Source of the DNA: an uncultured Muribaculaceae bacterium
GTDB taxonomy: Bacteria > Bacteroidota > Bacteroidia > Bacteroidales > Muribaculaceae
Direction of reading: 5' to 3'
Assembly: GCA_947628305.1 (NCBI GenBank)
Contig: CANQZG010000001.1
Span: 62,001-126,000 of the forward strand
DNA length: 64,000 nucleotides
Position numbers and translations under genes: made by a program. Every line of letters starts with the position of its first letter. The stretch's first letter is position 1. This document shows positions 16,332-40,639 of this stretch, one piece after another. The notes beneath the pieces are model-generated. The model made no database searches. It was not told the DNA's origin and was given only the letters and a program-made list of their open reading frames with translations.

Positions 16332-17915
16332 TTACTTTTTCTTGAGGTAGGGGGCGATGTAGGGCATGACGATGCGCTCCATGATTTTGTACCCATCGAG
16401 GGTGGGGTGACAACCGTCCTTGCTTAGATTGGCAGGAAGTCCGCCTTCGTCATTCGTCATTGCAGAGTGATAATCGACGTATGGGATTTTGTTCTCCTTG
16501 GCATACCGCTGTAGCATCTCGTTAAGCCGCTTGATGTCATTTGCCGGTTTAACCGACCTGTCCCAGTGGAACACTGTCGAGGGAAGTACCGATGCGATAA
16601 TCGGCTTGATTTTGTTGGCACGGGCGATTTCACACATTGACTTGACGTTCTGAACCACATGTTCAAGCGTGATGACACCGTTGTTACGCGCGATGTCGTT
16701 AGTCCCGGCAAGAATAACCACGGCCTTGGGATGAAGGTCGATGACATCGCTCTGGAAACGGGCGAGCATGTGAGACGAGGTCTGCCCGCTTATGCCACGC
16801 CCTGCTATGTTATGGTCGGTGAAAAACGCCTTGTCATTCTTGGGCCAGTTGTCCGTGATTGAGTTGCCCATGAACACAACATCAGGTGTCTTTTCCAATT
16901 CACGGTTCATCTTTTCATACCGATAGAACTGCGCCCAGTCGCTTGAACGTTGTTTCTCACGTGCCTCGGCCTTGAATTTCTTGGAAAAACGCTTGGCATC
17001 GACAAGATTAAACACCGCCTTTTTCAATCCCCGCTCGGCAAGATAGCCTATCAGGAACTGCGGCTGGTCGGTCTGGATTACGGAGCATCCCAGGCTGTCT
17101 ATAAGGAATCCGAAACCATCGGCGGGATTCACCAGCGATGCGAAATCGTCACGACCTCCGGCAAGAGTGCCCCACAGCGAGTTATACCACAGACGCGTTT
17201 TCCCTTTCAGTATAGGTTTCAATTTACCGGGGATGACATTGACAGTGTCACGATAAACCAGTTCTATGGCCGCAGGTTTCATCTTAGACATGAAGTCATT
17301 GACGCGTTCAATCGCGGTCGCCCGGTCGTCGAGTTTGACAATCGGCATGTAAATCAGTTTGTCAAGATACTTGCCATATCGGGTCTTGACCTCATCGGCA
17401 GTGGCACTACCTTTCATGATAACCTGGGATGTCGTCCCTGTCTCATCAAGGATTTTCATCACATCGTCAAAATAGTCGAATGCCTGGTCAAGATTGAACA
17501 ACGCTCTCCCTTTGTTGGCCGTCATCGCCTCACGCAAGGTGGGGACACGGTAAGGTGTTTTCTGCCCCACTCCGCTTTTCAGGTAAAGTCGCTTGATTTC
17601 AGCCAATGTCAGGTCTTCCACTTTTCCTTTGCCGGTTGTCGTACGGTCAACCGTCTTGTCATGCATCAACACCAATTCACCGTCGGCTGTACGTTTAAGG
17701 TCGACCTCGACAATATCTGCGCCGAGTTTGATTGCATTGTCGATACCTTCAAGCGAGTTCTCGGCATAGTTGCGCCAGTCGCCACGGTGCACGGCCACGA
17801 GCACCTCGCGGTCCTGCGGGTCAAGGAACTTGGCACGAATAGAGTCGGCCCGCGTCGCAGCCATGGAGGTCATGGCGACGGACAACGCAGCCATGGAAAG
17901 CAGTAGTTTTTTCAT
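16332..17915 (-). CDS. Secreted fusion: glycerophosphodiester phosphodiesterase + SGNH/GDSL hydrolase
   Basis: The 527-residue product has a signal peptide (MKKLLLSMAALSVAMTSMAA) and two catalytic domains. Domain 1 (about 35-300) is a GDPD TIM barrel: HRG at 43-45, EN at 52-53, EVD at 70-72 and HD at 85-86, the metal and acid/base residues for cleaving glycerophosphodiesters. Domain 2 (about 340-527) is an SGNH esterase: FMGNSITDNW with Ser352, Gly of GRGISG, GTND at 404-407 and DGCH with Asp500/His503. Both sites look intact. The pair could remove an acyl or acetyl group and break a phosphodiester on one substrate. It is the last gene of the PUL 1 run, separated from GH31 by a palindrome. 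The start at 17915 was chosen by the signal peptide. Confidence 0.88.
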   Translation of the reverse strand: MKKLLLSMAALSVAMTSMAATRADSIRAKFLDPQDREVLVAVHRGDWRNYAENSLEGIDNAIKLGADIVEVDLKRTADGELVLMHDKTVDRTTTGKGKVEDLTLAEIKRLYLKSGVGQKTPYRVPTLREAMTANKGRALFNLDQAFDYFDDVMKILDETGTTSQVIMKGSATADEVKTRYGKYLDKLIYMPIVKLDDRATAIERVNDFMSKMKPAAIELVYRDTVNVIPGKLKPILKGKTRLWYNSLWGTLAGGRDDFASLVNPADGFGFLIDSLGCSVIQTDQPQFLIGYLAERGLKKAVFNLVDAKRFSKKFKAEAREKQRSSDWAQFYRYEKMNRELEKTPDVVFMGNSITDNWPKNDKAFFTDHNIAGRGISGQTSSHMLARFQSDVIDLHPKAVVILAGTNDIARNNGVITLEHVVQNVKSMCEIARANKIKPIIASVLPSTVFHWDRSVKPANDIKRLNEMLQRYAKENKIPYVDYHSAMTNDEGGLPANLSKDGCHPTLDGYKIMERIVMPYIAPYLKKK

Positions 17916-17956
17916 TTCTGTCAATGTTTCTGTATATTGCATATTATACATTTTGG

Positions 17957-18003: not shown

Positions 18004-20640
18004 TCATCGTTTAAGCTGGGCTTTCAAGCGTTTCTTGAACCCGTCGCCTATGATGTCCATTTCATCGGTTTTATCAAACAATTGTCCGATATTGCTCTCG
18101 AAGTCCTTTATACAAGTCCTGATTTCGGCAGGATTTTCAAGTATGAAGTTGGGACATTGTGACACTTTCAGATATTCCTGCGGCAGCATCAGCCTGTCCT
18201 CCCCGTGACGTCCCTGTTCCTCCTTGAACTGCGGTGTCAGTGCGAGACAACGGTTGAACACCGCCTTTTTGCCGTATAACGCCGCATTGTCGGCATCAAC
18301 GCCCTCATAGTCAAGTGTCACGACCGCATCATTACCGACAGGAAGCGAGGCGGTATATACCACCGGCTGCAACGAATAACCGTCGTAGGTCCATTCACCG
18401 GCCTTTGGGAATCGTGAATAAGAGTATTTTACTCCGTTCACCTCGACCGATGCCGGAGGCATCATCGCCGGGAATCTAAGTTCATATCTCCGAGCGTCAG
18501 GTGCGCCGTCATAACCACCCTTGCGCGCGGCGATTCTTACATTGACACGGTTTCCGTCGGTATTTTTCTCCACATGAGTAATGGCATAATCACTCTCGTA
18601 GGATGATGATACACCGTCATCCTCATAGTGGTCGAGCGCGCCGTCATCACCCGGGATAAATGTCAGCACAAGTGTATCGCAATCCCGCTGTAGGTTCTTT
18701 ACATTATCAGGGTTCATCGGAATAATCGCGCCCGCCTTGACATAAAAGGGATTCTCGGCGAGGGTATAGGCCAATGTTTTTTCCTGATTCCCATCAATCA
18801 TGTCGCCGGTCACGAAGTCATACCAACGTCCCTGCGGGAACCACATCTTACGTTCAGCCAGGCCTGTAACCGAGTCTACGGGAGAGGCGACAACCGTGGC
18901 AAGGATATCGTCACCGAGGAAGAATTGCTCCGGGACATTGTAGGCCTTATCAAGCTCGGGATATTCATAATACATCGGTCGTGTCATCGCCACGCCCGTG
19001 TCATAGTTGGCACGCGCCGCGTTATAGATATAGGGGACGAGCGAGTAACGCTGCTTGATAGCATCACGCATCATGAACAGATGGTCGGGGAACGCCCACG
19101 GATAGCGCACGATGTTCATGTCCTTGCTCGAATGGGTCTTGAAAATCGGGGTGAACACACCATATTGCAACCACCGCAGATAAAGCTCGGGGTCGGTGTA
19201 ATGCCACTTGCCGTCCTTTGCAAAATAATGCCCGCCGATGTCGTGTCCCCAGTAACCGTAATTGACATTGGAGGCCGTCGAAGTGAAGTAAGGCAGGAAT
19301 GCGAGCGTAGACCATTTGATATAGGTATCACCCGAGAACCCGAGCGGATAACGGTGGCTTCCGAGACCTCCCCAGCGGTGATAAATAAACGGACGCTCTT
19401 TCACGTCTCGGTTCTTCGCATGCTTGAAGAAAGTGTGATTAAGCCAGAAAGTGTTGGAAAGGCCGGGGAGGAACTTAGACTCGCGCCACTGCTGCCAGTC
19501 GAGCCACCAAAAATCGACACCTTCCTTCTCCATAGGTTCAAGTATTGTCTTGAAATAAGTGTCGGCCCATTTCTTTTCATCCATCTTGAAAGGAATGCTT
19601 TTTGTCGTGTCCCTCCATCCATATTCCTTGGCAAAACGCTGATAGCATTCCTCGTATGGCTGAATACCCGACGCCGGATGCAGGTTCAACGCCACTTTCA
19701 AGTCCTCGTTTTCAGTCCATTTCAGGAAATTGGCCGGATTGGGGAACAATTGTTTCTGCCAGGTGTAACCCGTCCAGCCGATACGCTGTCCGTACTCATC
19801 CTTGGGCGTGTCTTTCGACCTTAATCCAAACGTGTCATGCCAGTCCATATCGACAATCAGGACATCGATTGGAATGTCAAACGCCTTTATTTTATCCACG
19901 ACATCCACCAATTCGTTGTCGGAATACTGCCAGTAACGGCTCCACCAGTAGCCAAAGGTATATTTCGGGGGCAGCGGTGCGCGACCCGCCACTTTCTGAT
20001 AGTCAGACAACGCCTTTTTATAGTCATGCCCGTAAGCGAACAGATACAGGTCTTGACGCTCTCCGTCGGGACGTGCGGCCACCCATTCGTCCCAGGACGA
20101 ATCGTCAGGCTTCAACAGATGGTTACGGCTATCATCAACAATAGCCCATCCGGCACGCGAGACAAGCCCTTTTTCCATAGGCTCACGACCAAACTTGATT
20201 CCGTCACACGCATCGAGGGTGCGTGCCGTCCCCATCAGGTTCTGTGTGTCATCCATTCCGGGATGCCACACAACATCCTTCCCGTTCATCTTGAACTTCA
20301 CCTCAAGATTTTTATCGTCAAAGGGTTTTCCGTCTTTTTTATAGGTGAGGGTAAGGGCATCGGTCTTGATGACGAGACGGGATTTGTTATCCTTTACAGT
20401 GAATTTGGGGACAGGCAGGGAACGGTTGACAAAAGTCAGCGTCTTGCAGTCTTCCCATTTGCCGTCAGGACTATATTCCATGCGTATCAGTTGCGGGGTC
20501 AACACCGTGAAACGCGCGTCACCAGCTGTCACTACCGCGCATCGGTCAGCCTTGGGGTCATCCTTGGCGTATGAGGTAAAACATGTCGCCGTCAATACAA
20601 CCGCGACACATATACGGGATACCAGACTGGATATTTTCAT
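18004..20640 (-). CDS. Glycoside hydrolase family 31 (alpha-glucosidase/xylosidase-type), secreted
   Basis: A retaining exo-acting alpha-glycosidase. The 878-residue product has a signal peptide (VVLTATCFTSYA) and an N-terminal beta-sandwich (about 35-215). The (beta/alpha)8 barrel (about 220-570) opens PPKYTFGYWWSRYWQYS and contains IPIDVLIVDMDWH. The probable nucleophile is Asp381 in DFWWLDWQQW and the acid/base is Asp438 in GFSGDT. It also has VNYGYWGHDIGG. Proximal and distal beta domains follow, and a C-terminal helical extension of about 90 residues that most GH31 enzymes lack. GH31 covers alpha-glucosidase, alpha-xylosidase, alpha-galactosidase and sulfoquinovosidase activities; I cannot choose. 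It has a possible promoter of its own at 20678-20705. Confidence 0.92.
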   Translation of the reverse strand: MKISSLVSRICVAVVLTATCFTSYAKDDPKADRCAVVTAGDARFTVLTPQLIRMEYSPDGKWEDCKTLTFVNRSLPVPKFTVKDNKSRLVIKTDALTLTYKKDGKPFDDKNLEVKFKMNGKDVVWHPGMDDTQNLMGTARTLDACDGIKFGREPMEKGLVSRAGWAIVDDSRNHLLKPDDSSWDEWVAARPDGERQDLYLFAYGHDYKKALSDYQKVAGRAPLPPKYTFGYWWSRYWQYSDNELVDVVDKIKAFDIPIDVLIVDMDWHDTFGLRSKDTPKDEYGQRIGWTGYTWQKQLFPNPANFLKWTENEDLKVALNLHPASGIQPYEECYQRFAKEYGWRDTTKSIPFKMDEKKWADTYFKTILEPMEKEGVDFWWLDWQQWRESKFLPGLSNTFWLNHTFFKHAKNRDVKERPFIYHRWGGLGSHRYPLGFSGDTYIKWSTLAFLPYFTSTASNVNYGYWGHDIGGHYFAKDGKWHYTDPELYLRWLQYGVFTPIFKTHSSKDMNIVRYPWAFPDHLFMMRDAIKQRYSLVPYIYNAARANYDTGVAMTRPMYYEYPELDKAYNVPEQFFLGDDILATVVASPVDSVTGLAERKMWFPQGRWYDFVTGDMIDGNQEKTLAYTLAENPFYVKAGAIIPMNPDNVKNLQRDCDTLVLTFIPGDDGALDHYEDDGVSSSYESDYAITHVEKNTDGNRVNVRIAARKGGYDGAPDARRYELRFPAMMPPASVEVNGVKYSYSRFPKAGEWTYDGYSLQPVVYTASLPVGNDAVVTLDYEGVDADNAALYGKKAVFNRCLALTPQFKEEQGRHGEDRLMLPQEYLKVSQCPNFILENPAEIRTCIKDFESNIGQLFDKTDEMDIIGDGFKKRLKAQLKR

Positions 20641-20790: not shown

Positions 20791-23448
20791 TTATCTTACG
20801 ACCTTGAATGTGCGGCCTCCACATGCAATCAGGCAGATACATGCCGACAGACTTGACAAATCAATGTCAACCTCGGTAGAACCGTTACCACCAACATTCT
20901 TCAACACACGCCCTGAAAGGTCGGAGACCACTACATTCCTTATGACATCAGGCGATGAAAGGCGGTAGACGCCATCCGAGACACAGGAGAGCACGACAGA
21001 GCTATCAACGTCGGAGACAACATCACCTATAGCAGTCAGTTCGCTATACTCAATCGCCCCCGGGACTGATTTACCTGCACGCGCATTACCGTGCTGGTCC
21101 ACTTTCAACTGATTCCCGACAACTCCATTGCCGTCAATATCGACACTGAACTCTTTCTCCAGATTACGCATCAACACAGTCAACGTGTTGACATCGCAGT
21201 CACCATATTTTGTCGATGCAAGCCTGGCGTATGGAGTCTTGCCGGCCTCACGTATTATATTGGCCGAAAAAACTCCGTTTTCCATTTTGCCATCCATCAA
21301 CGCCGGAAAGGCGTTGATGTAGGCATTCTTATCGACCGCCATTATAGACTTCGCGTCAGGGATGAAACTGACGGTTGTGGCGGTGGAGTACAGGTTATTG
21401 GCATCCTTCAGCACCCGGTCAGGGTCTTCTACACAAATATCGGCGTATGCTTCAGTCCCGTCGGAATGGTTACCGGCTATTATGTTATTCATCAGACGGA
21501 CATCGCCGCCTGAAATATTGATTGCCGAGGCATAATAGTTACCGGCCGATGACGCTGGAACAGTGGCCCGGTTGCCCGTCACTGTGACATGCCCCAGGTT
21601 CAGCCTTGACGTACCCGCCTTGGCTTCTTCATTGACAGCCGAATCTGAAAGACGCGCATGGATGGCTGCTCCGGCACACGCTTTCACGACAGTAGCCAAC
21701 CCGCCCTTTGAATCAAGCGTGTTGTCGGCGAATGTCGTGTTGACAACCGTGAACTGGACACTGGGCATCTCGTCATTGATGTACAATGCGCCCGACTTGC
21801 GCGACTTGTTCTCGACAAAGGAGCTGTTGCTTATCATGGCCGTAGCGTTGGTGAACCATATTTCAGTAGCCACAGGCGTGCCACAGTCAAGATAAACCGC
21901 CCCGGCCGTGGATGTGGCCTCGTTACTGTCAAACGAACATCCGTCGAGCCTGAACTTGTCATAGAAACCAACCGCTATCGCACCGCCGTTGACGGCCTTG
22001 TTTCCCTTGAACGAGCAACGTGTCGCGATGAAATTATTGCAATCGGCATAATAGGGTTTTAAGTCAGGATTGGATATTGCCGATACGGCACCGCCATAAC
22101 CAACCGCCTCATTATTGATGAAATCCACATTTTCAAGAGTCAGGTCGCAACCACGGAACAGCAACGCGCCGTCACGCTCGACAGCTGTAGAACGATAGTT
22201 GCGCAGTTCACAGTTCTTCATTGTCAACGAATAATTCTCGGGGACATACACCAACGGATATTCAAGACCCTCGCCGTCAAGGACTGTCTTACCGACTACC
22301 TCGGTGAACGCCTTGTTGTAACCGCCAAGAATCGTCAGGGTGTTCTCCGGGGCGACCGATTCATTGTAAACGCCCTCCGTGACCATTATAATGTCGTCAA
22401 TCTCGGCGTTGGCGGCCGCATCGGCAATAGAGTTGTACGGCTTCGCTTTTGTCCCGTCGCCGTCAGCCGAAGCCTCGGAGTCAACGTAAACCTCCCTGGG
22501 GGCACCCGGAGATTCAAGCTCGGCAACCACAAACACAGGGAAATGGTCCGATGCCGGATACTGCGTGCCCTGGTAGTCGTAAGTGTCAACGACAATGTGA
22601 CGTTCAAGAATCTTCATGTGGCGGAAAAACTGATAGTCGATTTCCTTGAAAGCATAACTTGACGAAGTGGTGTTGAACGCGCCATACGTCCCCTCTGTAC
22701 CGGGCAATGTCGTGGGCAGACAATAATTTTTCTCGGCCGCAACTTCAAACTTTGCGTCCTTGAACGAGGCACGATAGGCTTTATAGGCTTTCACATCACG
22801 CGGTATACGCTGCATGTTATAGTCAGCCACTACCATGACGGGATAATCCCCGGCGATTTCCTTGACACGATTCACCACAAGTTGGGAGCCGTATACACCG
22901 TCGAGAGTCCAGCCGTTATTGGTATGGGTGGCCGCATAGAAGAATATATCGCCTGTGCTTTTGTCCTTTAGTTTCACCCAGCCTACATTTCGGGTGTGGG
23001 TGGCTATTTTCTTGTCCCATCCCGCCGAATATTTCTCGGGGGTCGGCGATATAAAGAAACTGCCGGATTCAAGCATATCATATTTCCCGTTCTTGAACGC
23101 GATGCCGACATACTCCTTGTCGGCCGTGCCGTCACGGTCCCATGCGAGGAACGTGTACCCCGACCCTTCAAGGCTCGCACGGAACTCCTCCAACTGGGAC
23201 TTCCCTGTCAAGGAATTGTTATTGCCACGGCCACGTCCTGTCAGCTCCTGGAAACCAACCACGTCAAAATCGTATTTGGTTATCATGCTGATTGCAAACG
23301 GCCCACGGTTACACCAATCCTTGCCCCCCTTGTCGGTCGTCGCGCAATATCTCACATTGAACGTCGCGAGACGATGGGACGCGGCCACACCGCCCAAAGA
23401 AGCGATAACGAGTGAAAACAGTGTTATAAATAGTTTGGTTTTATTCAT
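20791..23448 (-). CDS. Secreted fusion: EEP-family phosphodiesterase + parallel beta-helix + T9SS-like tail
   Basis: The 885-residue product has a signal peptide (MNKTKLFITLFSLVIASLGG). Domain 1 (about 25-312) is an endonuclease/exonuclease/phosphatase fold: FNVR (Asn31), FQE (Glu68), THTNNGW (His175), ADYNM (Asp209/Asn211), IDYQF and SDHFP (Asp301/His302), a complete metal-dependent active site. Domain 2 (about 318-780) is a right-handed beta-helix with repeated NNEAVGYGGAVSAI, GNKAVNGGAIAVG and SNEATSTAGAVYLD coils. The last 70 residues include VVSDLSGRVL, a degenerate type IX secretion sorting domain. Members of the EEP fold cleave nucleic acids, sphingomyelin or inositol phosphates. The beta-helix probably binds or docks. 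Start 23448 was chosen by the signal peptide; the longer frame to 23553 runs into a repeat element. Confidence 0.87.
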   Translation of the reverse strand: MNKTKLFITLFSLVIASLGGVAASHRLATFNVRYCATTDKGGKDWCNRGPFAISMITKYDFDVVGFQELTGRGRGNNNSLTGKSQLEEFRASLEGSGYTFLAWDRDGTADKEYVGIAFKNGKYDMLESGSFFISPTPEKYSAGWDKKIATHTRNVGWVKLKDKSTGDIFFYAATHTNNGWTLDGVYGSQLVVNRVKEIAGDYPVMVVADYNMQRIPRDVKAYKAYRASFKDAKFEVAAEKNYCLPTTLPGTEGTYGAFNTTSSSYAFKEIDYQFFRHMKILERHIVVDTYDYQGTQYPASDHFPVFVVAELESPGAPREVYVDSEASADGDGTKAKPYNSIADAAANAEIDDIIMVTEGVYNESVAPENTLTILGGYNKAFTEVVGKTVLDGEGLEYPLVYVPENYSLTMKNCELRNYRSTAVERDGALLFRGCDLTLENVDFINNEAVGYGGAVSAISNPDLKPYYADCNNFIATRCSFKGNKAVNGGAIAVGFYDKFRLDGCSFDSNEATSTAGAVYLDCGTPVATEIWFTNATAMISNSSFVENKSRKSGALYINDEMPSVQFTVVNTTFADNTLDSKGGLATVVKACAGAAIHARLSDSAVNEEAKAGTSRLNLGHVTVTGNRATVPASSAGNYYASAINISGGDVRLMNNIIAGNHSDGTEAYADICVEDPDRVLKDANNLYSTATTVSFIPDAKSIMAVDKNAYINAFPALMDGKMENGVFSANIIREAGKTPYARLASTKYGDCDVNTLTVLMRNLEKEFSVDIDGNGVVGNQLKVDQHGNARAGKSVPGAIEYSELTAIGDVVSDVDSSVVLSCVSDGVYRLSSPDVIRNVVVSDLSGRVLKNVGGNGSTEVDIDLSSLSACICLIACGGRTFKVVR

Positions 23449-23609: not shown

Positions 23610-25280
23610 TTATTTCGCAACCTTGACGGACGCGTTACCGGCCTTGATGATGTAGACACCGCCGGCCATGCCTTCAAGGGATATTATCGAGTTGTCTCCA
23701 AGTTCCTGGGTCAGGACCTTGCGGCCGGAGATGTCATAGACATCAGCGACACCTTCGGTACCCTCGACCTTGAAGCTGCCGTTGCCAAGGGAAACGACCT
23801 TGATGTCATCACCGCTGACAGCGACATCGGCGATACCTGAACCACCGGCCGACGCGTTGGGGTCATAGCAACCGCGATAGGAGGTGGCGGCACGTTTGTT
23901 CCCGTAGATATCGACTGAAAGGTCGATTTTTACATCCTTGAACGCTGTGAGGAAATCACACGCGTCAAACGCAGCCTGTACCGACGCCACATTTACATCT
24001 CCGCATGAAGCCAGCGGCTCGATGTAGTAACCGCCGTCCTTTTCAGTGATTTTGTTGCTGCCGAGCACATCGCTCTGGGTTGCGACATTCCAATTGTCGG
24101 TCGATGCCCATGTATTGTTCACGAGACCTGTTTCCCAGATTGATTCGGGCTGAGAGTTCATATAACGGCCCCCTATAGAGTTGTAACCGCCTGTTATGTA
24201 TTTAAGTTTATTATTATTTTGGTCAAAGAAAGCGTACACTTTAGGGACATCGGTCGTCATGGGTGAAACAATGATGTTACCGGCAATGAAGAAAGGAGTA
24301 CCCGCATTGATTGAGCATACCACGCCCTTACTGTCAGACGGGTCTGTTGTGTTGAAATTATAGAATGTATTGTAGGCCATAATCATCTGGCAATTGTTAG
24401 CCTGACGTAAGCATCCTCCGTTCTGCTTCAAGGTCAGGCCACTTCCGTCAAGCAGGTTGTTAACCATCACCAAGTCAACTGATTTATCCTGGTTGGCGAT
24501 AAGACCGCCATAGCAGAACACAGTCTTGGCAAGTTCAGCGTTGGCAAGAGTGTTGCCTGTCATCGTACATCCCTCAAGAACAACGAGAGAATGCTCTGTC
24601 TCGCCACCACGAGCACTGATGCAGACTGCCCCGGTATTGTTCTTTTTCTTGTCACCGCTGCCGGCTGCATCGTAATGAACTTCATAATAATTGTTGACAT
24701 TATTCCTCCACACACAATGCTTTGCATAGAACTGTGACTTATAGGGTACTACAATGCCACCCCATGAGGTGACGTTGTTTTCAAATGTCACATCCTCAAT
24801 CTTCATGATAGCCTTGCGAGTATAAAGGACAGTGCCTTTATATTCAGTGATATTTCCACCTGTCGCACCTGTGAAGGTGACACCCTTGATTTCGGTGGCC
24901 TGTTTACTTTGTTCCTCATTATTGACACTAATAAACGGCTCGCCGCCATTCTTGCCCTGGGCATCGAAGATTGTCTTGTTTACCGAGGGATTGTAACCTG
25001 ACACGTCAGTCCCGGTGGCCGACGCGGGAAAACCGCCTATCACCGATATACCGTCGACCATGTTGACTGTGACACCGTTATAGGTACCCGCTCCGAAATA
25101 TATGATGTCTCCTGATTCAACACCTTCAAGAATATCAGCGAGTGACTCGGCGGGGAATGCGTTCTCCCATGATGAACCGTCCTGTTCACCGGCTCCGGCC
25201 GGAGTTGCAAAATAGGTCGCTGCACCGGCATTGAACCCGGCTAAAAGAGCGGCCACCAATAAGAAAGTAGATTTTTTCAT
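23610..25280 (-). CDS. Secreted parallel beta-helix protein with T9SS type A sorting domain
   Basis: The 556-residue product has a signal peptide (LLVAALLAGFNAGAA). A pectate-lyase-like beta-helix follows (about 20-400; first coils AGEQDGSSWENAFPAESLADIL, IIYFGAGTYNG). The C-terminal 75 residues are of type A sorting type: VYDISGRKVL...GGVYIIKAGNASVKVAK. Polysaccharide lyases and hydrolases share this fold, but no catalytic residues can be assigned, so a binding or structural role is equally possible. It sits between SusD and the EEP fusion and shares the beta-helix theme with the latter, so the two may act on, or dock to, the same surface polymer. Confidence 0.83.
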   Translation of the reverse strand: MKKSTFLLVAALLAGFNAGAATYFATPAGAGEQDGSSWENAFPAESLADILEGVESGDIIYFGAGTYNGVTVNMVDGISVIGGFPASATGTDVSGYNPSVNKTIFDAQGKNGGEPFISVNNEEQSKQATEIKGVTFTGATGGNITEYKGTVLYTRKAIMKIEDVTFENNVTSWGGIVVPYKSQFYAKHCVWRNNVNNYYEVHYDAAGSGDKKKNNTGAVCISARGGETEHSLVVLEGCTMTGNTLANAELAKTVFCYGGLIANQDKSVDLVMVNNLLDGSGLTLKQNGGCLRQANNCQMIMAYNTFYNFNTTDPSDSKGVVCSINAGTPFFIAGNIIVSPMTTDVPKVYAFFDQNNNKLKYITGGYNSIGGRYMNSQPESIWETGLVNNTWASTDNWNVATQSDVLGSNKITEKDGGYYIEPLASCGDVNVASVQAAFDACDFLTAFKDVKIDLSVDIYGNKRAATSYRGCYDPNASAGGSGIADVAVSGDDIKVVSLGNGSFKVEGTEGVADVYDISGRKVLTQELGDNSIISLEGMAGGVYIIKAGNASVKVAK

Positions 25281-25357: not shown

Positions 25358-27145
25358 TTATTCAAATGTCAGCCCGTCGTTCCAGCCGGGGTTCTGTGTG
25401 AGCGCGCCGCCTGAAAGCGTCCTCTCGCCCACGGGAATACCGTAGAGATAATCGCGGTCCTCGCGCCAGGTGCGTTTGTTGGCATCGTCGCCGAAACGCA
25501 AGGCGAAACCATGGTCACCCTCGCTAAGGATGATATCCTTGCCGATTTCGAGGAACTTCAAGCCGAGTCCACCAGGTTTCTTGCCCTCGTAGATACAGAT
25601 ATTGGCTTTGCCGTCACCTGTCATGTCATACTTACCGGGACCGGGGAAATAGATACCATAGAACGGCTTCTCATAGACTTTACCCTCTTTCCAGCGGAGG
25701 ATATCATTATAGTGTACCAGCTCGAGCGCAAGCTCGACCATGCGCTCGCGGCGTATCTCAAGAATCACGCCTGTGTTGGCACTCTTCGTTACGTTGGGGT
25801 ACCCCCACTCCTCACTCATCAGATAGGTATCGGGGGCTGAATTGGCGTCGGCCATCTTCAGGTCGGGCATGCCGACACGGTCACGCAGACGGTTTACCGA
25901 AATGTCGAGGTCGTTCTGGGTGAGCGTTCCAAGCTCGGCAAGAGCCTCGGCATAGTTGAGATAAATCTCGGCGAGACGGAAAATGGGCATGGCCGTGCGA
26001 GACTGGTTGTAGGCATCATGGGAGTCATCCATCACATATTTAATATACTGATAGCCACCCTTAGTGTTGGTTATGTTCATGACGCTCACCTTGCTCTGTC
26101 CCTGCTGGATATAGCCGGGGCCGAGGACAGTCTGTGACATGCGCGGGTCACGGTTCTTGAACTCATCGACATATTCCATGGTCTTCCATGACGGATTGTC
26201 AGTAAAACGCGAGCCATCGGCATTCAGGTAAAGGTTGACAAAACGCTTTGTCAGAGACATGCTACGGGTCTTGGAATTGTCGTTGGCATTGTGTTTACCG
26301 CCGACCTGGTCACCGTAGATGCGCGCCCATATATACTCGTTGCCGTCAGGCTCAATTGTCGAGAAAAGGTCACGATAAGGCTCAGCACCACCCTTGTGGA
26401 GAGAATATCCACCCTCGTCCATAAGTTTTTTGGATGCCTCGGCACATGTCTTCAGCAACTCGTCACCCGGTAGATTGGCGGGATTGAACGGGTCGCCCGC
26501 ATGATACTTGCGGAACGTCCCTTCAAATAGACATGCGCGTGACTTCAACGCAAGTGCCGTCCATGCACACACCTGGGTCGTGTTGCGTGTCTTGGGCAAC
26601 AGTTCAAACGCCTTGTCACAGTCCTCTATGATGTGATTGATGACCACATCACGGTTGTCCCGGGGTTTATTCAGCATAGCATGGTCGCCCGAGCCCACAG
26701 GCTGGTCATACCAGGGCACCTCGCCGAACTTCACCAGATAATTATAGTAGAAGAACGCGCGGAAGAAGTAGGCAACGCCATCATAATGGTCGCGTGCCGC
26801 CTTGTCGGGGCAACGGTGGGAGTACAACAGATAATAGTTGATGTTGCGCAACGTGCCCCAGGACCAACCCACATCGCCTGCCTTGGAAGGCAACGGACGC
26901 GAGCCTCTGATTTCATTGGACGGGACCTCGGGGGTCACAAGTTCACCCTGCTCAAGAAACCACTTGAACGTCCCCACTTGCGGCTGCAGCGAGTAAAACG
27001 AGTTGGTGAACTGTTGCAGTTCAGCCTCCGACCCGAAATAATTCTCCGGGACAAGCCTGTCCTCGGGGAACTGGTCCATGGTGGTACAGCCGGTCATGGC
27101 CGATACAGCCATTAAGCCTGTAATGAATTTATATATTGATTTCAT
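25358..27145 (-). CDS. SusD/RagB-family glycan-binding lipoprotein (PUL 1)
   Basis: A surface lipoprotein that caps the SusC channel and binds substrate. The 595-residue product has a lipoprotein signal with lipobox MTGC (Cys20). A TPR-rich helical body follows (EAELQQFTNSFYSLQPQV; YFFRAFFYYNYLVKFGEVPWYDQPVG, a SusD hallmark; AWTALALKSRACLFEGTFRKYH). The C-terminal half has PIFRLAEIYLNYAEALAELG, ILEIRRERMVELALEL and IPVGERTLSGGALTQNPGW, all standard. It lies 13 bp after SusC. The start at 27145 follows the signal peptide; an in-frame extension to 27181 overlaps the SusC end. Confidence 0.95.
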   Translation of the reverse strand: MKSIYKFITGLMAVSAMTGCTTMDQFPEDRLVPENYFGSEAELQQFTNSFYSLQPQVGTFKWFLEQGELVTPEVPSNEIRGSRPLPSKAGDVGWSWGTLRNINYYLLYSHRCPDKAARDHYDGVAYFFRAFFYYNYLVKFGEVPWYDQPVGSGDHAMLNKPRDNRDVVINHIIEDCDKAFELLPKTRNTTQVCAWTALALKSRACLFEGTFRKYHAGDPFNPANLPGDELLKTCAEASKKLMDEGGYSLHKGGAEPYRDLFSTIEPDGNEYIWARIYGDQVGGKHNANDNSKTRSMSLTKRFVNLYLNADGSRFTDNPSWKTMEYVDEFKNRDPRMSQTVLGPGYIQQGQSKVSVMNITNTKGGYQYIKYVMDDSHDAYNQSRTAMPIFRLAEIYLNYAEALAELGTLTQNDLDISVNRLRDRVGMPDLKMADANSAPDTYLMSEEWGYPNVTKSANTGVILEIRRERMVELALELVHYNDILRWKEGKVYEKPFYGIYFPGPGKYDMTGDGKANICIYEGKKPGGLGLKFLEIGKDIILSEGDHGFALRFGDDANKRTWREDRDYLYGIPVGERTLSGGALTQNPGWNDGLTFE

Positions 27146-27158
27146 GTGATTGACTGTT

Positions 27159-30100
27159 TTAGAAAACGATATTGACACCAAATGAGAACGACTTGGAGAA
27201 ACCGTAGGTCAGCGCGTCATTGGTCTTTTTGCCTGAGTTGGTCGCAGTTTCGGGGTCTATTGTCTTGCAATGTTTCTTCAACGGAGACCAGTAGCAGAGG
27301 TTCTCACCCGAGAAATACAAACGCAGCTCCTGGAAATACTGTTTCAGCACCGGTAGGGTGTAACCCACCGTCAGGTTCTTCAGACGCAGATAGGCCAGCG
27401 ACTGGAGGTAACGGGTGTTAGGTCCTGCGCCCATGGAGTTCTTGCTTCCGTATGCCTCGTATGAACGTAGACGCGGGAAATAGGCATCAGGGTTATCCTC
27501 GTTCCAAACGTTGGAGAGGAAATCGGCCGGGAGATAGGCGTTATAAGGTCGGCAATACGGGCCCCAGAACGTACGGGCCTCGTTGCCGGGATACCAGTCA
27601 CACTTGCCTATCCCCTGGAAGAACGCCGAGATGTCGATTCCCTTCCACTCAATGCTGCCACGGAAATTGTAGTTGTAACGAGGGGTGGAGTTACCGATGA
27701 CACGCATGTCGCCCGGTTTCTTAACCGTTCCTTCGCCGGGGGTGATTTCGCCGTTGCCATCGACATCGACATAACGGACATCACCTGCATGAAGTCCACG
27801 GTACGGGCCCTGGGTGTAGATGTCACTGTAAACGTATGTGCTCCCGTCAATATGTTTCATGTATTCGGCCGCCTCCTCGTCACTGCTGAACAGGCCGTCG
27901 ATTGTGTAACCCCATATCTCACCGAGACGTTCGCCCACATAGTGGCTTCCAATCTTGTAGTTGGAATTGTCGAACTTGGTTATTTTGGACGAATAGTCAC
28001 CGATACCCGCGCCTACCGAATAACGGAATGTCGAGCCGAGCAACTTGAAATCGTCGTTCCATGACACGGCGAGTTCCCAACCCTTAGTGCGGAGGTCGGC
28101 ACAGTTGGCCTTGGGCACCGATGCACCGTAGACAGCCGTCAGGTCGGCACCGCTGGTGAGCATGTCCTTGGTATCGCGGATATACATGTCGCCCGTGAAA
28201 TTGAGGCGGCTGTTAAGGAAGCTGAGGTCGAGACCGGCGTTATAGGTGATGACCTTCTCCCATGTCAGGTCAGAGGCGGGAGGTGCGCTCACCGAGGCGT
28301 AGGGGACGTAGGTCGTGCCGTCAAACGTCAGGTTGTCCATCAGCTGATTGGTGGTGATTTTCTGTATATAGTCGTAATATCCCACCTGCTGGTTGCCGAG
28401 GCTACCGTAGGAAAGACGGATTTTACCGTTGCTCCACCAGTCACGCACAGGCTCGAAGAAATTCTCCTCGCTGAAACGCCAGCCTGCCGAGGCCGAAGGG
28501 AAGAAACCCCAGCGGTGGTTCTTGGCGAATCGTGACGAGCCGTCGTAACGTCCTGAAAGTTCCAAGAGATACTTGCCGGCGTAATCATAGTTGACACGCG
28601 CGAAATAGCCGTAGGTCACCGAATTGTTGATTTCGTCCTTGAAATCCTTCACCTCGCCCGTGGCGATGTTGAGTGAGTTGACATCGGGGCTCATCAGGTC
28701 CTGGCGTTCACCCTTGAAATAAAGGTGACGGTAGATTTCACCGTTGAAACCGGCGGTGACTTTCAGATTGTGGTCCCCGAAACTCGGCGACACGGTTGTA
28801 TAGGCGTTGATTGTCTGCGTGGTGTTGTTGGTCATGCCACGGGTGAACATGTCCCAGCACATCGAGTCGGCCGCGCCGTCAATCCACCCGACGATGCCGT
28901 CGGTATTGCTGTAAGGCACGGGGACACGGCGCATCTCGCGGTTGAGGTTACGGTAGAGATAGGCATAGTCGGCGTTGATTGTCCACCATGATACGGGAGT
29001 GATTTCAATGGCGTTCTTCACCATGAACTCACGGTTCTGGTCCTTGTTCTTGTGTTTGCCGTAGTTGAGCAGGGCGTTGTAGCCGTCGCTGACCTTGGCC
29101 GTACCCACGGTAATGATGCCCGATATATCCCACAGTGAAGTACCGTCGGGGTTGGTCGAGGGGAACGATGCGAGCGCATGGTTGGCCGAACGATAGAAGA
29201 AGTCGTTGAGGTCAGACGAGCCTGAACGCTCGTAGGTCGACTCGAAGAAACTCGTGTTGACCCTGTATTTCAGCCAGTCGGTGACCTTGATGTCGAGTTT
29301 GGCACGCATCGAGTAACTCTTGTACTTGTCATTGTCAATGTTCATCACGCCGTCCTCAAAGTAGGCACGGCCACTGACATAGTAGTTAACCCTCTTTGAG
29401 CCACCGGTGATAGAGACATTGTAGTCCTGCATCGGACGGCTCTTGCGGTAGTAGTGGGAATACCAGTCATGGTTGGCATAGTAACGCCAGTGTTTGTCAG
29501 ACGTCGGGATTGCCCATGGACGCTCGGCCGACTCGGTTGTCTGACCGAGACGCATCCACATCTCGGCGTAATCATACTCGTCATAGTTGGTATAAGGGTT
29601 GCCGCCATGGTTCAGGTTGGCCTGGTCATTGATATATGTCGACCAGAAACCGCTTGTGACAAAATCGGTGCTGACGGTCTGACGACGCCATCCGGCCTTA
29701 AGGTCAGCCGACACCTTGGGGGTGGCGTCAAGTTCGCCCGACTTGGTCGTAACGAGCACAACGCCCGCCGAGGCTTTCGCTCCGTAAATCGCCGCTGCCG
29801 AAGCGTCCTTTAGAATCGAGACCGACTCTATATCGTTGGCGTTCACACGAGTCAGGTCCATCTCTACACCGTCAACGAGCACCAAAGGGCTACCACCGTT
29901 GATTGAGGCGACACCACGTATGTTGATTGAAGCACCCGCGTTAGGGCCGCCCGAACCCATCGACAGGTTGAGAGCCGGGTCAGCGCCCTGAAGGGCGGTC
30001 GCCGCATTGCCAGTAGGACGTCCGTTGACATCCTTGGCCTTGACAACGCTCACCGCACCGGTGAGGTTAACCTTCTTCTGACTGCCGTAACCGACGATTA

Positions 30101-30722
30101 CGACCTCGTTGAGGACATTGTCGGCGGCATTCATCCTGTAGTCGTAGGCCCCGCCATGCGTAACCTTTACCGACGCGGGCGTATAACCTACGTATGTGAA
30201 TTCAAGCACGTCACCCTTGGCGACATTGTTCAACGTATAGTTACCATCGACATCGGTGGCGACACCGTTGGACGGATTCCCCTTGACACGCACGCTCGCG
30301 CCAATCAGAGGTTCGTCATTTTCGTCGGTGACACGACCGTTCACGGTAAAAGTTTCTTTCACACCGCCCTCCCTGGCGGCTGCGGTGACATCCTTTGGCG
30401 GCTCTGTTCCTTTCTCAAAGACAGCGACATTATTATTCGCCCCGAGGCGGTAATCAAGTTTTGAACCGGCAAACATGCGGTCGAGCACCTGACGCTCTGT
30501 GGCGTTCTTCACCGACACGCTGACGGGACGGTCAAGACCGGGCAATGTCGATTTATAGAAAAACCGAAGTTCCGAGACCCTCTCGACCTCACGCATGGCA
30601 CGCGAGAGCGGAATCTTGGAAAACGACACCGTTATATCGGCCCACACCGAGACAGCCGAGACAGCCACGGCAACCGTCAGGGCCAACAGACGGCGAGATT
30701 GATGTTGTAATGAAATCCTCAT
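27159..30722 (-). CDS. SusC/RagA-family TonB-dependent transporter with STN domain (PUL 1)
   Basis: The outer membrane importer of PUL 1. The 1187-residue product has a signal peptide (VAVAVSAVSVWA) and an STN secretin/TonB short N-domain (about 30-95, ITVSFSKIPLSRAMREVE). A carboxypeptidase-like sandwich follows (about 125-205, VNGRVTDENDEPLIGASVRV). Then comes the SusC plug, with EVVIVGYGSQKKVNLTGAVSVV and the DASAAAIYGAKASAGVVLVTTKSG signature. A 22-strand barrel ends FSFGVNIVF. The STN domain normally contacts the FecR anti-sigma factor, and a FecR and ECF sigma gene lie just upstream, so substrate-triggered trans-envelope signalling is expected. Confidence 0.96.
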   Translation of the reverse strand: MRISLQHQSRRLLALTVAVAVSAVSVWADITVSFSKIPLSRAMREVERVSELRFFYKSTLPGLDRPVSVSVKNATERQVLDRMFAGSKLDYRLGANNNVAVFEKGTEPPKDVTAAAREGGVKETFTVNGRVTDENDEPLIGASVRVKGNPSNGVATDVDGNYTLNNVAKGDVLEFTYVGYTPASVKVTHGGAYDYRMNAADNVLNEVVIVGYGSQKKVNLTGAVSVVKAKDVNGRPTGNAATALQGADPALNLSMGSGGPNAGASINIRGVASINGGSPLVLVDGVEMDLTRVNANDIESVSILKDASAAAIYGAKASAGVVLVTTKSGELDATPKVSADLKAGWRRQTVSTDFVTSGFWSTYINDQANLNHGGNPYTNYDEYDYAEMWMRLGQTTESAERPWAIPTSDKHWRYYANHDWYSHYYRKSRPMQDYNVSITGGSKRVNYYVSGRAYFEDGVMNIDNDKYKSYSMRAKLDIKVTDWLKYRVNTSFFESTYERSGSSDLNDFFYRSANHALASFPSTNPDGTSLWDISGIITVGTAKVSDGYNALLNYGKHKNKDQNREFMVKNAIEITPVSWWTINADYAYLYRNLNREMRRVPVPYSNTDGIVGWIDGAADSMCWDMFTRGMTNNTTQTINAYTTVSPSFGDHNLKVTAGFNGEIYRHLYFKGERQDLMSPDVNSLNIATGEVKDFKDEINNSVTYGYFARVNYDYAGKYLLELSGRYDGSSRFAKNHRWGFFPSASAGWRFSEENFFEPVRDWWSNGKIRLSYGSLGNQQVGYYDYIQKITTNQLMDNLTFDGTTYVPYASVSAPPASDLTWEKVITYNAGLDLSFLNSRLNFTGDMYIRDTKDMLTSGADLTAVYGASVPKANCADLRTKGWELAVSWNDDFKLLGSTFRYSVGAGIGDYSSKITKFDNSNYKIGSHYVGERLGEIWGYTIDGLFSSDEEAAEYMKHIDGSTYVYSDIYTQGPYRGLHAGDVRYVDVDGNGEITPGEGTVKKPGDMRVIGNSTPRYNYNFRGSIEWKGIDISAFFQGIGKCDWYPGNEARTFWGPYCRPYNAYLPADFLSNVWNEDNPDAYFPRLRSYEAYGSKNSMGAGPNTRYLQSLAYLRLKNLTVGYTLPVLKQYFQELRLYFSGENLCYWSPLKKHCKTIDPETATNSGKKTNDALTYGFSKSFSFGVNIVF

Positions 30723-31248: not shown

Positions 31249-32220
31249 TCACGGATTGCGGGAGAGATAAAACACCGAGTCGTTCTCCTGATGAACCGTC
31301 AGTCCGGCCGCGGCCGAGATTGTCCTCAATGTCCCGTTCAGGTCCTTGTCTCCCATGCTGCCGGTGAAACGCACATTGTTCAACGACCCGTCGAGGATAT
31401 TGACTCTCACACCGTAACGGCGTTCGACAGTGCGCAGGATGTCATCAAGTCTTTCGGCATTGAACCGCATGTAACCGTCAACCCATTCACAATAATCGGC
31501 TGCGCGTGCCGCACGTGTCTCGAGCCTGTGACTCGACTTGTCATAGTGTACAACCATGTCGGGGGTCATCGTCACCTGATTTCCGCCTTCAGAGACAAGA
31601 ACCGACCCTTCCTTCAGCGCGACCGTCATGACCGTGTCATCGGGATAGTTCTTGACATTGAACTGCGTCCCACGGCATTCCACCTCTACGCCGTCACACT
31701 TGACGACAAAAGGATGGGCGGCGTCGGAGGCTACGTCAAAGAACGCCTCGCCTTTCAGTTCCACCACACGGCGACGGCTCTCCCCGTCATAACTGTAGAC
31801 AACCTCCGAAACCGAGTTAATATTCACCGCCGTACCATCGGGCAGTGTCACACGCGACTGTTGCATCGCTCCGGCCTTGACAGCCAACGGCATCGACGGC
31901 GGCATGTCATGCCGCCCGATAACAATGAAACCCAACGCAAGCATCAACAACACGCTCGCCGCAACCGACATCGCGAGCATACCGCCCGAGAAACGCCTCG
32001 CACCACGGTCGCCCTGACGGCCCGAGACCACCTGACGGCGTATGCGCCTACCGACCGTGGCATCCACCATCGGCGACGCCGACATGATTTCCTCTTTGAG
32101 CCATGAGCCGAACGTCGTATCGGTCTCATACCACAGTCTCACGTCCTCACGCTCGTCAAGCGAGGCCTCTCCCGCGAGATATTTCTCGACCATCCGTCTT
32201 GTTTCGTTTATATCTTTCAT
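31249..32220 (-). CDS. FecR-family anti-sigma factor (PUL 1)
   Basis: An inner-membrane anti-sigma regulator. The 323-residue product has an N-terminal sigma-binding helical part (MKDINETRRMVEKYLAGEAS...W). A membrane helix lies at about 82-103 (MLAMSVAASVLLMLALGFIVIG). A periplasmic FecR domain (about 120-220; VTLPDGTAVNINSVSEVVYSYDGESRRRVVELKGEAFFDVA) is followed by a C-terminal STN-interacting domain (DUF4974-type; ERLDDILRTVERRYGVRVNI). Its start overlaps the sigma factor stop by 1 bp. It should hold the sigma factor until the SusC STN domain signals. Confidence 0.95.
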   Translation of the reverse strand: MKDINETRRMVEKYLAGEASLDEREDVRLWYETDTTFGSWLKEEIMSASPMVDATVGRRIRRQVVSGRQGDRGARRFSGGMLAMSVAASVLLMLALGFIVIGRHDMPPSMPLAVKAGAMQQSRVTLPDGTAVNINSVSEVVYSYDGESRRRVVELKGEAFFDVASDAAHPFVVKCDGVEVECRGTQFNVKNYPDDTVMTVALKEGSVLVSEGGNQVTMTPDMVVHYDKSSHRLETRAARAADYCEWVDGYMRFNAERLDDILRTVERRYGVRVNILDGSLNNVRFTGSMGDKDLNGTLRTISAAAGLTVHQENDSVFYLSRNP

Positions 32221-32792
32221 TACAGTGCCAATATCAAAATTAGGGACATAAACATCGCCCTGATGTGGTAACGGCTCGACAGCTGCTCCTTGATGAATTT
32301 CAACGCCAACGCCACATGGGTCTCGACTGTGCTGACCGAGATGTCGAGTTCCTCTGAAATCTGCTTGTAGGATTTATCCTCAAGACGGTTCATCCTGAAC
32401 ACCCGGCGACGGACAGGTGGCAGTTCCTCGACCAGTGCATTGATATACCCCGAGAGGAAACGGGCATCGACATCCTGCTCAGTCGTGCACTCATACCCTT
32501 TGCCTGTTTTCAACAGATAATTGAAATAGGCATGCTCGACGGCCTGACGCTCGCAGTGGTTGAAAAAGACATTACGGGCAATCGAGAGCAGAAACGCCTC
32601 CATTGACTCCACATCCGACATCATACCACGCCGCTCCCACACCCGCATGAAAACCATCTGCGTGATTTCCTCGGCAAGCCACTCGTCACCATGGGAAATA
32701 TGGAGCACAAAATTGTAGATGCGCCCGCTGTAATCATGGTACAGAGTCTCAAAATGCCGGTCTGGCAGCCTTTCAGGCTTACGGTGTAACAT
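32220..32792 (-). CDS. ECF-type RNA polymerase sigma factor (PUL 1)
   Basis: A 190-residue Bacteroidetes ECF sigma factor. Sigma region 2 (about 15-80: HFETLYHDYSGRIYNFV, EEITQMVFMRVWE) and region 4 (about 125-175: MNRLEDKSYKQISEELDISVSTVETHVALALKFIKEQL) are both complete. A short hydrophobic tail (MFMSLILILAL) follows. It is the first gene of a co-directional run through FecR, lipoprotein, SusC, SusD, two beta-helix proteins, GH31 and GDPD-SGNH. No consensus -33/-7 pair is visible in the 80 bp upstream, so it may be autoregulated. Confidence 0.95.
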   Translation of the reverse strand: MLHRKPERLPDRHFETLYHDYSGRIYNFVLHISHGDEWLAEEITQMVFMRVWERRGMMSDVESMEAFLLSIARNVFFNHCERQAVEHAYFNYLLKTGKGYECTTEQDVDARFLSGYINALVEELPPVRRRVFRMNRLEDKSYKQISEELDISVSTVETHVALALKFIKEQLSSRYHIRAMFMSLILILAL

Positions 32793-33560: not shown

Positions 33561-35081
33561 TTACATGGGCGATGAAATCTTAATGTTGTCAAGGAACCAG
33601 CGTAATGCCTTGGAGTTGGGCCATTGCGCATCAGTGTTACGTATAATGATACGGGTATTCTTGTCAACCTTAGCACCTGAGAGGTCTACATCAGCGTTAA
33701 CCCATACCAGTTTACCGTTGTCAGGTATACCGTGCTGGAGGGTAGCGACAGGTGTCTCCTCATCTCCGTTCTTCAAAATAACCACGAGTTCAGTCGGGTC
33801 AACGACACCGCTGCCTTGACGCTGCGATGACCATACAAACGAAAGTTTCAAACCTTCGATACCACCGTCACCAAGAGCCTCTATTGCAGGAAGTATGATA
33901 CCTCCCTGATAGCTTGTCTTACCGAACTTGAAATAGTTGCCGTTAAGATATATACACTCACCAGCCTTCTTATCGGGAGCACAAGTGCGCAGGAATTCAT
34001 ATCCACGAGCCTGGGCGGCGCCTTCGGCCGTCACACCGTCAACCTTGGTACCGGCTGCTGAAATCTGCGGAGAACTTGCGCCCGGGTCATCGGTCTCGAT
34101 TGTGCTGCCGGCACCTGATGCCTGGACATGCGGAGCAAGCCATTCGAAGTCATCGCTGAAGTAGATTGTCTCGGCGATACCGTTGTCGGCAATCAGGTTG
34201 GATGCAATAACCTTCACGGCAGGGGCAGCCACACCCGAGAAGTATCCCCCGATAGTTACGCTGTGACCCTTGAAGTCATCCAGTTTCAGGTTTTCAGCGA
34301 CTTCAATGAACTGGACCTTGTTTGTCGCACCCTTCACCGACAGGACATTGCCGTCGAGTACGCCGGTAACCGTTATGTAGTCACGCTTGGTCAGCGTCAT
34401 ATTGTCAAGACTGCCGGTGATGTCAGTGCCCTGTGGGTATGTAACGGCCTGACCATCGGAGAGCTTGGTTACGCGCTCGCCCAGGACGTATGCCATTCCA
34501 TCAGTCCATTTTTCACCCTGCACCTTCACCATATTGCCCGGAGCGACAGAGATATCACTGCCGAGAACCCAGATGTTATCAGTGCCGTCGGTTGCCACAA
34601 AACCGTTGGAAGTGACAGCCATGACAGTCAAATTGGTAATCGCGACCACGGTCTCGTCATTGACAGCGTCAATCTCGTTGATTTGATATTCCTTGCCATC
34701 GCGGAACTTGTCGCCGTCCTGGCGTATAACGACCTTGGCCTGGCTGGCCAATGACGGCCCATGGAAAATCAGGTCATAACGACGGGGATTATCGAGCGCG
34801 CCGTCACGGAGGTTATCGGAGACTGAAATCTCGACATCCATTGTACCGACACCCTCGGCCGGGGTGACTGTAATCCACTCGGGGGCATCAACAGTCCATG
34901 CACCGTCGGAATATACGGTGACTATCTTTGTATCAGGATTTGTCCCCTCAAAGTTCAACCCGCTCGCGCTGACAAGCACAGCCTTGGCGGGTGCAGGGCC
35001 GTCATCGTCCTTACATGAGCTGACCGAGAGTGTCAGCACGCTCATGAGCGCAACGAAACAATATTTAAATATATTTTTCAT
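33561..35081 (-). CDS. BACON-domain surface lipoprotein, probable glycan-binding protein (PUL 2)
   Basis: The 506-residue product has a lipoprotein signal with lipobox VSSC (Cys23) followed by KDDDG (surface export signal). A BACON domain (about 35-122; SDGAWTVDAPEWITVTPAEG, a BACON hallmark) is followed by a middle OB-fold-like DUF5689-type domain (about 130-290; INEIDAVNDETVVAITNLTVMAVTSNGFVATDGTDNIWV). A C-terminal jelly-roll-like domain (about 305-506) ends ALRWFLDNIKISSPM. No catalytic motif is present. It occupies the SusE/SusF position after SusD and is likely a surface glycan-binding protein. Transcription of PUL 2 appears to end here. Confidence 0.88.
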   Translation of the reverse strand: MKNIFKYCFVALMSVLTLSVSSCKDDDGPAPAKAVLVSASGLNFEGTNPDTKIVTVYSDGAWTVDAPEWITVTPAEGVGTMDVEISVSDNLRDGALDNPRRYDLIFHGPSLASQAKVVIRQDGDKFRDGKEYQINEIDAVNDETVVAITNLTVMAVTSNGFVATDGTDNIWVLGSDISVAPGNMVKVQGEKWTDGMAYVLGERVTKLSDGQAVTYPQGTDITGSLDNMTLTKRDYITVTGVLDGNVLSVKGATNKVQFIEVAENLKLDDFKGHSVTIGGYFSGVAAPAVKVIASNLIADNGIAETIYFSDDFEWLAPHVQASGAGSTIETDDPGASSPQISAAGTKVDGVTAEGAAQARGYEFLRTCAPDKKAGECIYLNGNYFKFGKTSYQGGIILPAIEALGDGGIEGLKLSFVWSSQRQGSGVVDPTELVVILKNGDEETPVATLQHGIPDNGKLVWVNADVDLSGAKVDKNTRIIIRNTDAQWPNSKALRWFLDNIKISSPM

Positions 35082-35106
35082 TTTGATTTATTTCTAAAGT
35101 TTGAAA

Positions 35107-36945: not shown

Positions 36946-36953
36946 TTTTAGGT

Positions 36954-40328: not shown

Positions 40329-40415
40329 AAATTTGCACTGTAATATTTAATTATAACTCGGTTTTTCTATGGTAATAAGCGGCCACGGGTCTAAAAGATT
40401 GTCTAATGTACATTA

Positions 40416-40457
40416 GCTTCCTGCACCGATGGTGCAGGAAGCCGCCATGGCGGCTTC
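40416..40457. repeat. Two overlapping palindromes upstream of SusC (PUL 2)
   Basis: GCTTCCTGCACC-GAT-GGTGCAGGAAGC (40416-40442) and GAAGCCGCCATGGCGGCTTC (40438-40457) share the GAAGC arm, so only one can form at a time in single strand. A third palindrome with core CGCGGCATGCCGCG follows at about 40535-40550. They may be a family A-like repeat or a transcript switch ahead of SusC. No consensus promoter is seen in this 311-bp gap. Confidence 0.6.
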
Positions 40458-40630: not shown

Positions 40631-40639
40631 ATGGTTTCG

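Follow-up and report, generated by a model that had tools for sequence, protein, structure and literature searches.

What could a bacterium do with a single exported protein that joins an EEP-type phosphodiesterase domain to a right-handed beta-helix and a secretion tail? The question is raised by a gene at positions 20791 to 23448 of a stretch of 64,000 nucleotides (the window) from an uncultured Muribaculaceae bacterium (assembly GCA_947628305.1, contig CANQZG010000001.1, positions 62,001 to 126,000 of the forward strand). An earlier reading of this DNA, made without database searches (the sequence-only reading), had described the three parts of this EEP-helix protein and proposed that the helix binds a polymer whose phosphodiester links are cut by the EEP domain. 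Our analysis confirms that observation and partly supports the interpretation. Judged by homology, the EEP-helix fusion is a real and distinct protein family, and the gene neighborhood suggests what its substrate may be: we propose that a polysaccharide utilization locus (PUL) encodes the protein as an exported phosphoesterase, which helps to break down a glycan with alpha-glycosyl groups and phosphodiester links, probably one of the glycerol-phosphate (teichoic-acid) type, and we give this reading a probability of about 0.4.

The coordinates of the sequence-only reading were right; the gene lies on the minus strand, and the plus strand over the same interval is interrupted by stops. Against Pfam PF03372, residues 29–302 of the window protein reach 19.3 bits, under the gathering score of 24.5, which is passed by the homologues at loci L032, L036 (two), and L038; at E ≤ 0.05, PF03372 is matched in 11/11 family members. 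When the window protein was compared with the PDB by phmmer, stand-alone EEP proteins were found (3g6s at 4.4e-17, 4c1r at 6e-14, and 3mpr at 3.9e-14), and a profile of 11 fused homologues matched 4c1r at 2.6e-56, with the entire EEP domain covered. All of the catalytic residues that had been named, Asn31, Glu68, His175, Asp209, Asn211, Asp301, and His302, are indeed present, and they are invariant in the fused proteins compared, at first in 8/8 and then in 11/11, which share 25–48% identity with the window protein. The sub-threshold Pfam score of the window domain would fit a protein that only binds and whose EEP domain is a relict, or an adhesin without relevant catalysis, and the invariance of every catalytic residue in 11 of 11 divergent members makes such an explanation very improbable.

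The beta-helix expected after the EEP domain was found as a PF13229 match over residues 400–582 (27.0 bits, cut-off 25.9). PF13229 is matched at E ≤ 0.05 in only 3 of the 11 family members, and when a profile was built from the helix part, only its first ~45 positions matched two solved enzymes, 3vst (1.9e-6) and 5olq (0.0025). The tail of the window protein has no PF18962 or TIGR04183 match at E ≤ 0.1, whereas TIGR04183 is found in six of the 11 family members at E ≤ 0.05, and the earlier description as a “degenerate” type A sorting tail is therefore apt. AlphaFold, run on the lone window sequence, gave a mean pLDDT of 34.9, which is too low to show folds. As far as can be judged from these matches, an EEP domain with an intact catalytic set, a beta-helix region, and a tail related to type A signals of the type IX secretion system (T9SS) are combined in one exported protein. 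Its export by this system is plausible, because the genome encodes SprA (2699 bits) and PorU (906 bits), the two T9SS components that were searched. The genome also has 14 Por_Secre_tail matches at E ≤ 0.01, four of them above the cut-off. As a separate observation, two adjacent genes of the T9SS sortase (PorU) type, both above the family cut-off, lie at G000:C10:53872-61799, G000 being the window genome.

A search for the combination of EEP and beta-helix yielded 15 proteins at 13 loci in 12 genomes, which belong to three families of the order. The sequence-only reading had allowed for two separate genes joined by an assembly error; the recurrence of the architecture in 12 genomes rules this out. 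In G154 and G187, two of these genomes, the gene straddles two contigs, and its two pieces were counted as one. The fusions came from several genome draws that overlap one another. In 297 genomes of the same family, with at most three candidates scored per genome, 106 had a hit at E ≤ 1e-10, which in most cases covered just the EEP part, and EEP plus helix was seen in eight: G000, G118, G091, G154, G032 (three proteins), G127 (two), G012, and G187. Two more genomes of the window's genus, G024 and G045, gave no match in this draw. The order draw (393 genomes, two candidates scored per genome) added G503, G648, and G460, from two other families, to G000, and the class draw (395 genomes) had the fusion in G000 alone. 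Within those two families, it is carried by 3/9 genomes of f109 (G503, G648, and G1067) and by 1/5 genomes of f60 (G460); a second order draw of 393 genomes gave, outside family f1, only these same four. Peptide-pattern scans of genome contigs revealed no relative, and neither did viral contigs; phage records gave EEP-level matches only, at 22–24% identity in five records.

Of 63 EEP domains placed in a tree, 13 come from fused proteins; they group in a single clade (support 100/98) that contains none of the other 50, which are the best hits of the family, order, and class searches and not a random sample. The tree thus holds 13 of the 15 fused proteins, without the split ones of G154 and G187, and the rows L006_1 and L007_2, cut by a locus edge and labeled as EEP, were counted among the fused. 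Because the fused proteins form one clade, the fusion seems to have arisen once, and repeated independent fusion is ruled out for the sampled proteins. Tandem duplicates of the EEP-helix gene occur at L036 15112-19809 (G032:C71) and from L038 16105 to L039 2132 (G127:C8). An EEP–beta-helix family was not found in the open-access literature, in which our queries never paired EEP with beta-helix.

The gene neighborhood indicates what such a protein may be used for (Table 1). The EEP-helix gene is number seven of nine co-oriented genes with intergenic gaps of −23 to 161 bp, in the order sigma factor, FecR, small lipoprotein, SusC, SusD, beta-helix protein, EEP-helix, GH31, and GDPD-SGNH. With its SusC/SusD pair, its enzymes, and its sigma/FecR regulator, the cluster is, by gene content, a PUL. 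The last gene follows the GH31 gene after 52 bp on the same strand, and its GDPD residues HRG/EN/ExD/HD are in place. The adjacent gene at 23610–25280 had been taken for a possible partner or ancestor of the helix part, and a relationship is borne out: with hhalign, its product can be aligned to the EEP-helix family over 477 columns of helix and tail (97.4%), and nine of the 13 loci have a beta-helix/sorting-tail protein encoded between SusD and EEP-helix. In the window, this protein occupies the position of a surface glycan-binding protein.

Table 1. Features of the EEP-helix gene and of its cluster, in window coordinates.
Feature	Position	Strand	Basis or remark
EEP-beta-helix gene	20791..23448	-	885 aa; ATG at 23448, stop at 20791; same-architecture homologues in 12 genomes
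Signal peptide, probable Sec, residues 1 to ~23, no lipobox cysteine	23380..23448	-	Inferred from hydrophobic N-terminus by eye
EEP domain, residues ~22-312; catalytic Asn31, Glu68, His175, Asp209, Asn211, Asp301, His302	22513..23385	-	phmmer, profile, residue conservation
Right-handed beta-helix region, residues ~313-800	21049..22512	-	PF13229 above cut-off; 3vst/5olq over first coil only
Degenerate C-terminal sorting-type tail, residues ~801-885	20791..21048	-	6/11 family members match TIGR04183
ECF-type sigma factor	32220..32792	-	PF08281, PF04542
FecR-type anti-sigma factor	31249..32220	-	PF04773, 65 bits
Small putative lipoprotein, 138 aa	30747..31163	-	66% identical in G091 and G118 loci; no Pfam/NCBIfam family match
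SusC family TonB-dependent transporter	27159..30722	-	TIGR04056, 845 bits
SusD family lipoprotein, probably begins a few codons further in	25358..27181	-	PF07980, 142 bits
Beta-helix protein with T9SS type A tail	23610..25280	-	TIGR04183, 23.3 bits (cut-off 23)
GH31, GH31_u1 (alpha-1,3-glucosidase) kind	18004..20640	-	7wj9 at 9e-138; active-site residues
GDPD (with DUF4996) fused to SGNH/GDSL esterase	16332..17951	-	PF03009, PF16387, PF13472; 3i10 at 1.8e-88, 3p94 at 3.6e-70

This setting also bears on the idea of an extracellular NucH/ExeM- or MnuA-type nuclease, which would scavenge DNA or RNA. NCBIfam models of such enzymes are matched at E ≤ 0.05, MnuA by 8/11 members (best 5.8e-5) and ExeM/NucH by 4/11 (best 3.7e-5). 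However, these are far weaker than the matches to 4c1r and related proteins and are explained by the EEP fold that all of them share, and the locus is a glycan PUL with GH31 or NAGPA and not one for nucleoside scavenging. We therefore regard a nuclease as improbable.

One clue to the glycan is the GH31 enzyme of the window, which is closest to LlGH31_u1 of Lactococcus (7wj9), with 43% identity over 475 aligned positions. According to its description (PMC9061262), LlGH31_u1 is a GH31_u1 enzyme with a strict preference for nigerose, and the window enzyme keeps seven of the active-site residues given there (His280, Gln343, Phe391, Asp394, Asp423, His427, and Ser455). Not kept are Tyr99, replaced by Lys, and Met122, replaced by Ala; position 429 was left out of the comparison, as this source gives Asn where the alignment shows Gln. 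The orthologues in G118, G091, and G154 keep the residues too, but Ser455 is Thr. Unlike the Lactococcus enzyme, which the same source presents as probably intracellular, the window GH31 carries a signal peptide and is encoded in a PUL. Because the residues of a nigerose enzyme are kept, it is reasonable to suppose that the target in the window is alpha-1,3-linked glucose. Nigerosyl wall teichoic acid of lactobacilli was considered as the exact substrate; the term did not turn up in the one review that a literature search gave, and this substrate was not used as evidence.

Glycerol phosphate as a part of the substrate is suggested by three pieces of gene content: the GDPD of the window, the genes for GlpT and GlpD before SusC in one genus, and a separate, unrelated cluster of the window genome on contig C33 (L141, G000:C33, 896-9066). 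The latter, a small PUL, encodes a SusD-like protein, an unknown protein of 446 aa, the phosphodiester glycosidase NAGPA, GDPD/DUF4996, and an MFS transporter; it is likely a glycerophosphodiester-glycan locus in its own right, and it ties NAGPA to the same GDPD/DUF4996 family as in the window. GlpT of the window genome itself was rejected as evidence, as its three matches (317, 277, and 221 bits) are weak and far under the cut-off of 632.55. Within the EEP-helix loci, GDPD is found in the window, and GlpT and GlpD at the f109 loci only. In these, which belong to the one genus (G503, G648, and G1067), the genes run GlpD, GlpT, SusC, SusD, beta-helix protein, NAGPA, EEP-helix, and NAGPA, and GlpT of G648 passes that cut-off with 639 bits. 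This PUL-type GlpT is present in 3/3 genomes of the genus with the PUL and in 0/6 without it; five of these six carry another GlpT and one has none. The other kind belongs to a glp/GDPD cluster in the two cases that were read; in G585, the cluster that was scanned, it lies with GDPD and a glpABC-like set.

How a glucosidase and a phosphodiesterase may belong together is illustrated by GlpQ of Bacillus subtilis. According to work on this enzyme (PMC7086022), GlpQ removes sn-glycerol-3-phosphate from wall teichoic acid until it meets a unit that carries alpha-linked glucose. A glucosidase encoded next to a phosphodiesterase would therefore be useful. Its attack on the phosphodiesters of glycerol-phosphate glycans is the reaction that we propose here, and the window cluster has a GDPD of the same superfamily; in contrast to the EEP-helix protein, the GlpQ described there is of the GDPD type and acts on the producer's own wall. 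The most likely substrate class, as suggested by the neighboring genes, would be an alpha-glycosylated glycerol-phosphate glycan, for example the wall or lipoteichoic acid of Gram-positive neighbors. T9SS would send the EEP-helix protein to the cell surface or outside, where its beta-helix and the adjacent beta-helix partner protein would hold the glycan, and the EEP domain would remove phosphate esters or cut phosphodiester links of the captured chain. SusC/SusD would import the products, a periplasmic GH31 would strip the alpha-1,3-linked glucose, and a periplasmic GDPD-SGNH would release glycerol phosphate and esters; as a speculation, the SGNH part might take off D-alanyl or acetyl esters. 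The original idea of a polymer-binding helix with a phosphodiester-cutting EEP domain would be compatible with, and sharpened by, a PUL with GH31 and a glycerophosphodiesterase and relatives with NAGPA, GlpT, and GlpD.

The other loci vary around this theme. SusC/SusD are present at 12/13 loci, and GH31 at all loci of the window's family but G187 (8/9) and at 0/4 outside that family. Another phosphoester enzyme is nearby at 9/13 loci, a raw count that has no baseline for PULs in general. Besides the GDPD of the window, these are a separate EEP at G032:C71, G032:C13, and G127, a pair of NAGPA genes flanking EEP-helix at each of the three f109 loci, an alkaline phosphatase and a calcineurin-like phosphoesterase (MetallophosN/C) that adjoin EEP-helix at G460, and two MetallophosN/C phosphoesterases at G187, where a GH84 is also near. 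At G127 and G032:C13, the separate EEP is accompanied by GH97 and GH31, and the G127 copy of GH97 is closest to 3a24, of the alpha-galactosidase kind (2.9e-221). As the accessory content varies between loci, several related substrates are suggested. The substrate could also be a different phosphate-bearing bacterial glycan, such as a capsule, O-antigen, or exopolysaccharide with glycerol phosphate or sugar phosphate, in place of teichoic acid: the genes fit any glycan with alpha-linked glucose or galactose plus phosphodiesters, the GH97 enzymes point in this direction, and nothing specific counts against it. We nevertheless consider this rather unlikely.

A further explanation starts from the NAGPA genes. 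NAGPA removes a sugar from a sugar-1-phosphate diester. NAGPA-type enzymes or glycosidases could thus expose sugar phosphate, as in yeast phosphomannan or other sugar-1-phosphate-6-sugar links, and the EEP domain would act as a phosphomonoesterase that removes the phosphate cap. NAGPA flanks the EEP-helix gene at three loci, and the best profile match, 4c1r, is named a mannosyl-6-phosphatase; we take 4c1r to be from a Bacteroides yeast-mannan PUL. Because the nearest characterized EEP is named as a phosphomonoesterase, such a sugar-phosphate phosphatase is a serious rival. However, no alpha-mannosidase family was found among the scanned neighbors, apart from a sub-cut-off GH99 at G460 (22.2 bits, cut-off 33), and GlpT/GlpD and GDPD would be left unexplained, so that on balance we doubt it.

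Several points weigh against an exported phosphoesterase for glycerol-phosphate glycans as well. The same 4c1r annotation is one of them, and cleavage of diesters by the EEP domain is putative. A further phosphoester enzyme was not seen at 4/13 loci (G091, G118, G154, and G012), and GDPD-SGNH follows the PUL in the window only, and not in G091, G118, or G154. The linkage to GlpT/GlpD counts as one evolutionary event, as it comes from one genus, and NAGPA is common in those genomes, with 10 matches each in G648 and G1067. G187 is without SusC/SusD on the two contig-end pieces examined. Finally, four GH31 enzymes of distant loci have no equivalent of His427, which makes alpha-1,3-linked glucose a less convincing guess there.

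Among known systems, 4c1r, 3mpr, and 3g6s resemble the EEP-helix protein over the whole EEP domain (profile E-values of 2.6e-56 to 3.5e-55), and the PUL setting is common to them, but these stand-alone proteins have neither a beta-helix nor a sorting tail. The fused proteins are a clade of their own among the sampled Bacteroidia EEPs, in a tree that was made without 4c1r. A beta-helix joined to teichoic-acid cleavage is also known from the tail spike gp12 of phage phi29, which binds and cuts teichoic acid; gp12 is a phage protein without an EEP domain, and the likeness is a functional analogy only.

A bolder possibility, which we consider unlikely, is that PULs dedicated to teichoic acids, or to glycerol-phosphate glycans like them, exist in gut Bacteroidota, with the EEP-helix protein as their signature surface enzyme. 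The helix would then grip the polyanionic chain, EEP and NAGPA would cut the phosphodiester and sugar-phosphate links, GH31 would remove the alpha-glucose that blocks enzymes of the GDPD/GlpQ type, and GlpT/GlpD would take in the glycerol phosphate. No PUL for teichoic acids, wall polymers that would be a source of carbon and phosphorus, came up in our searches of one open-access library. If true, the combination of EEP-helix with NAGPA, GDPD, and GlpT/GlpD beside SusC/SusD would be a genetic handle on the gut recycling of the phosphate-rich wall polymers of Gram-positive bacteria. Even without a teichoic substrate, there is a family, apparently of single origin, that unites a phosphoesterase and a beta-helix in PULs.

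Some minor observations concern the surroundings of these loci. Directly upstream of the window PUL lies a second SusC/SusD locus (33561-42634, minus strand) with a BACON-like lipoprotein, SusD, SusC, and a calcineurin-like phosphoesterase of the MetallophosN/C family, the family that also adjoins the EEP-helix genes at G460 and G187, and beside this second PUL is a sulfatase-family gene (43700-45268, plus strand). At L038 14487-16256, between GH31 and EEP-helix, DUF4886 is fused to a sugar-isomerase-like TIM barrel (AP_endonuc_2). The SusC of G091 is in two pieces of 1089 and 90 aa (L033 8071-11622) and whole in G118, which points to a frameshift or a sequencing error.

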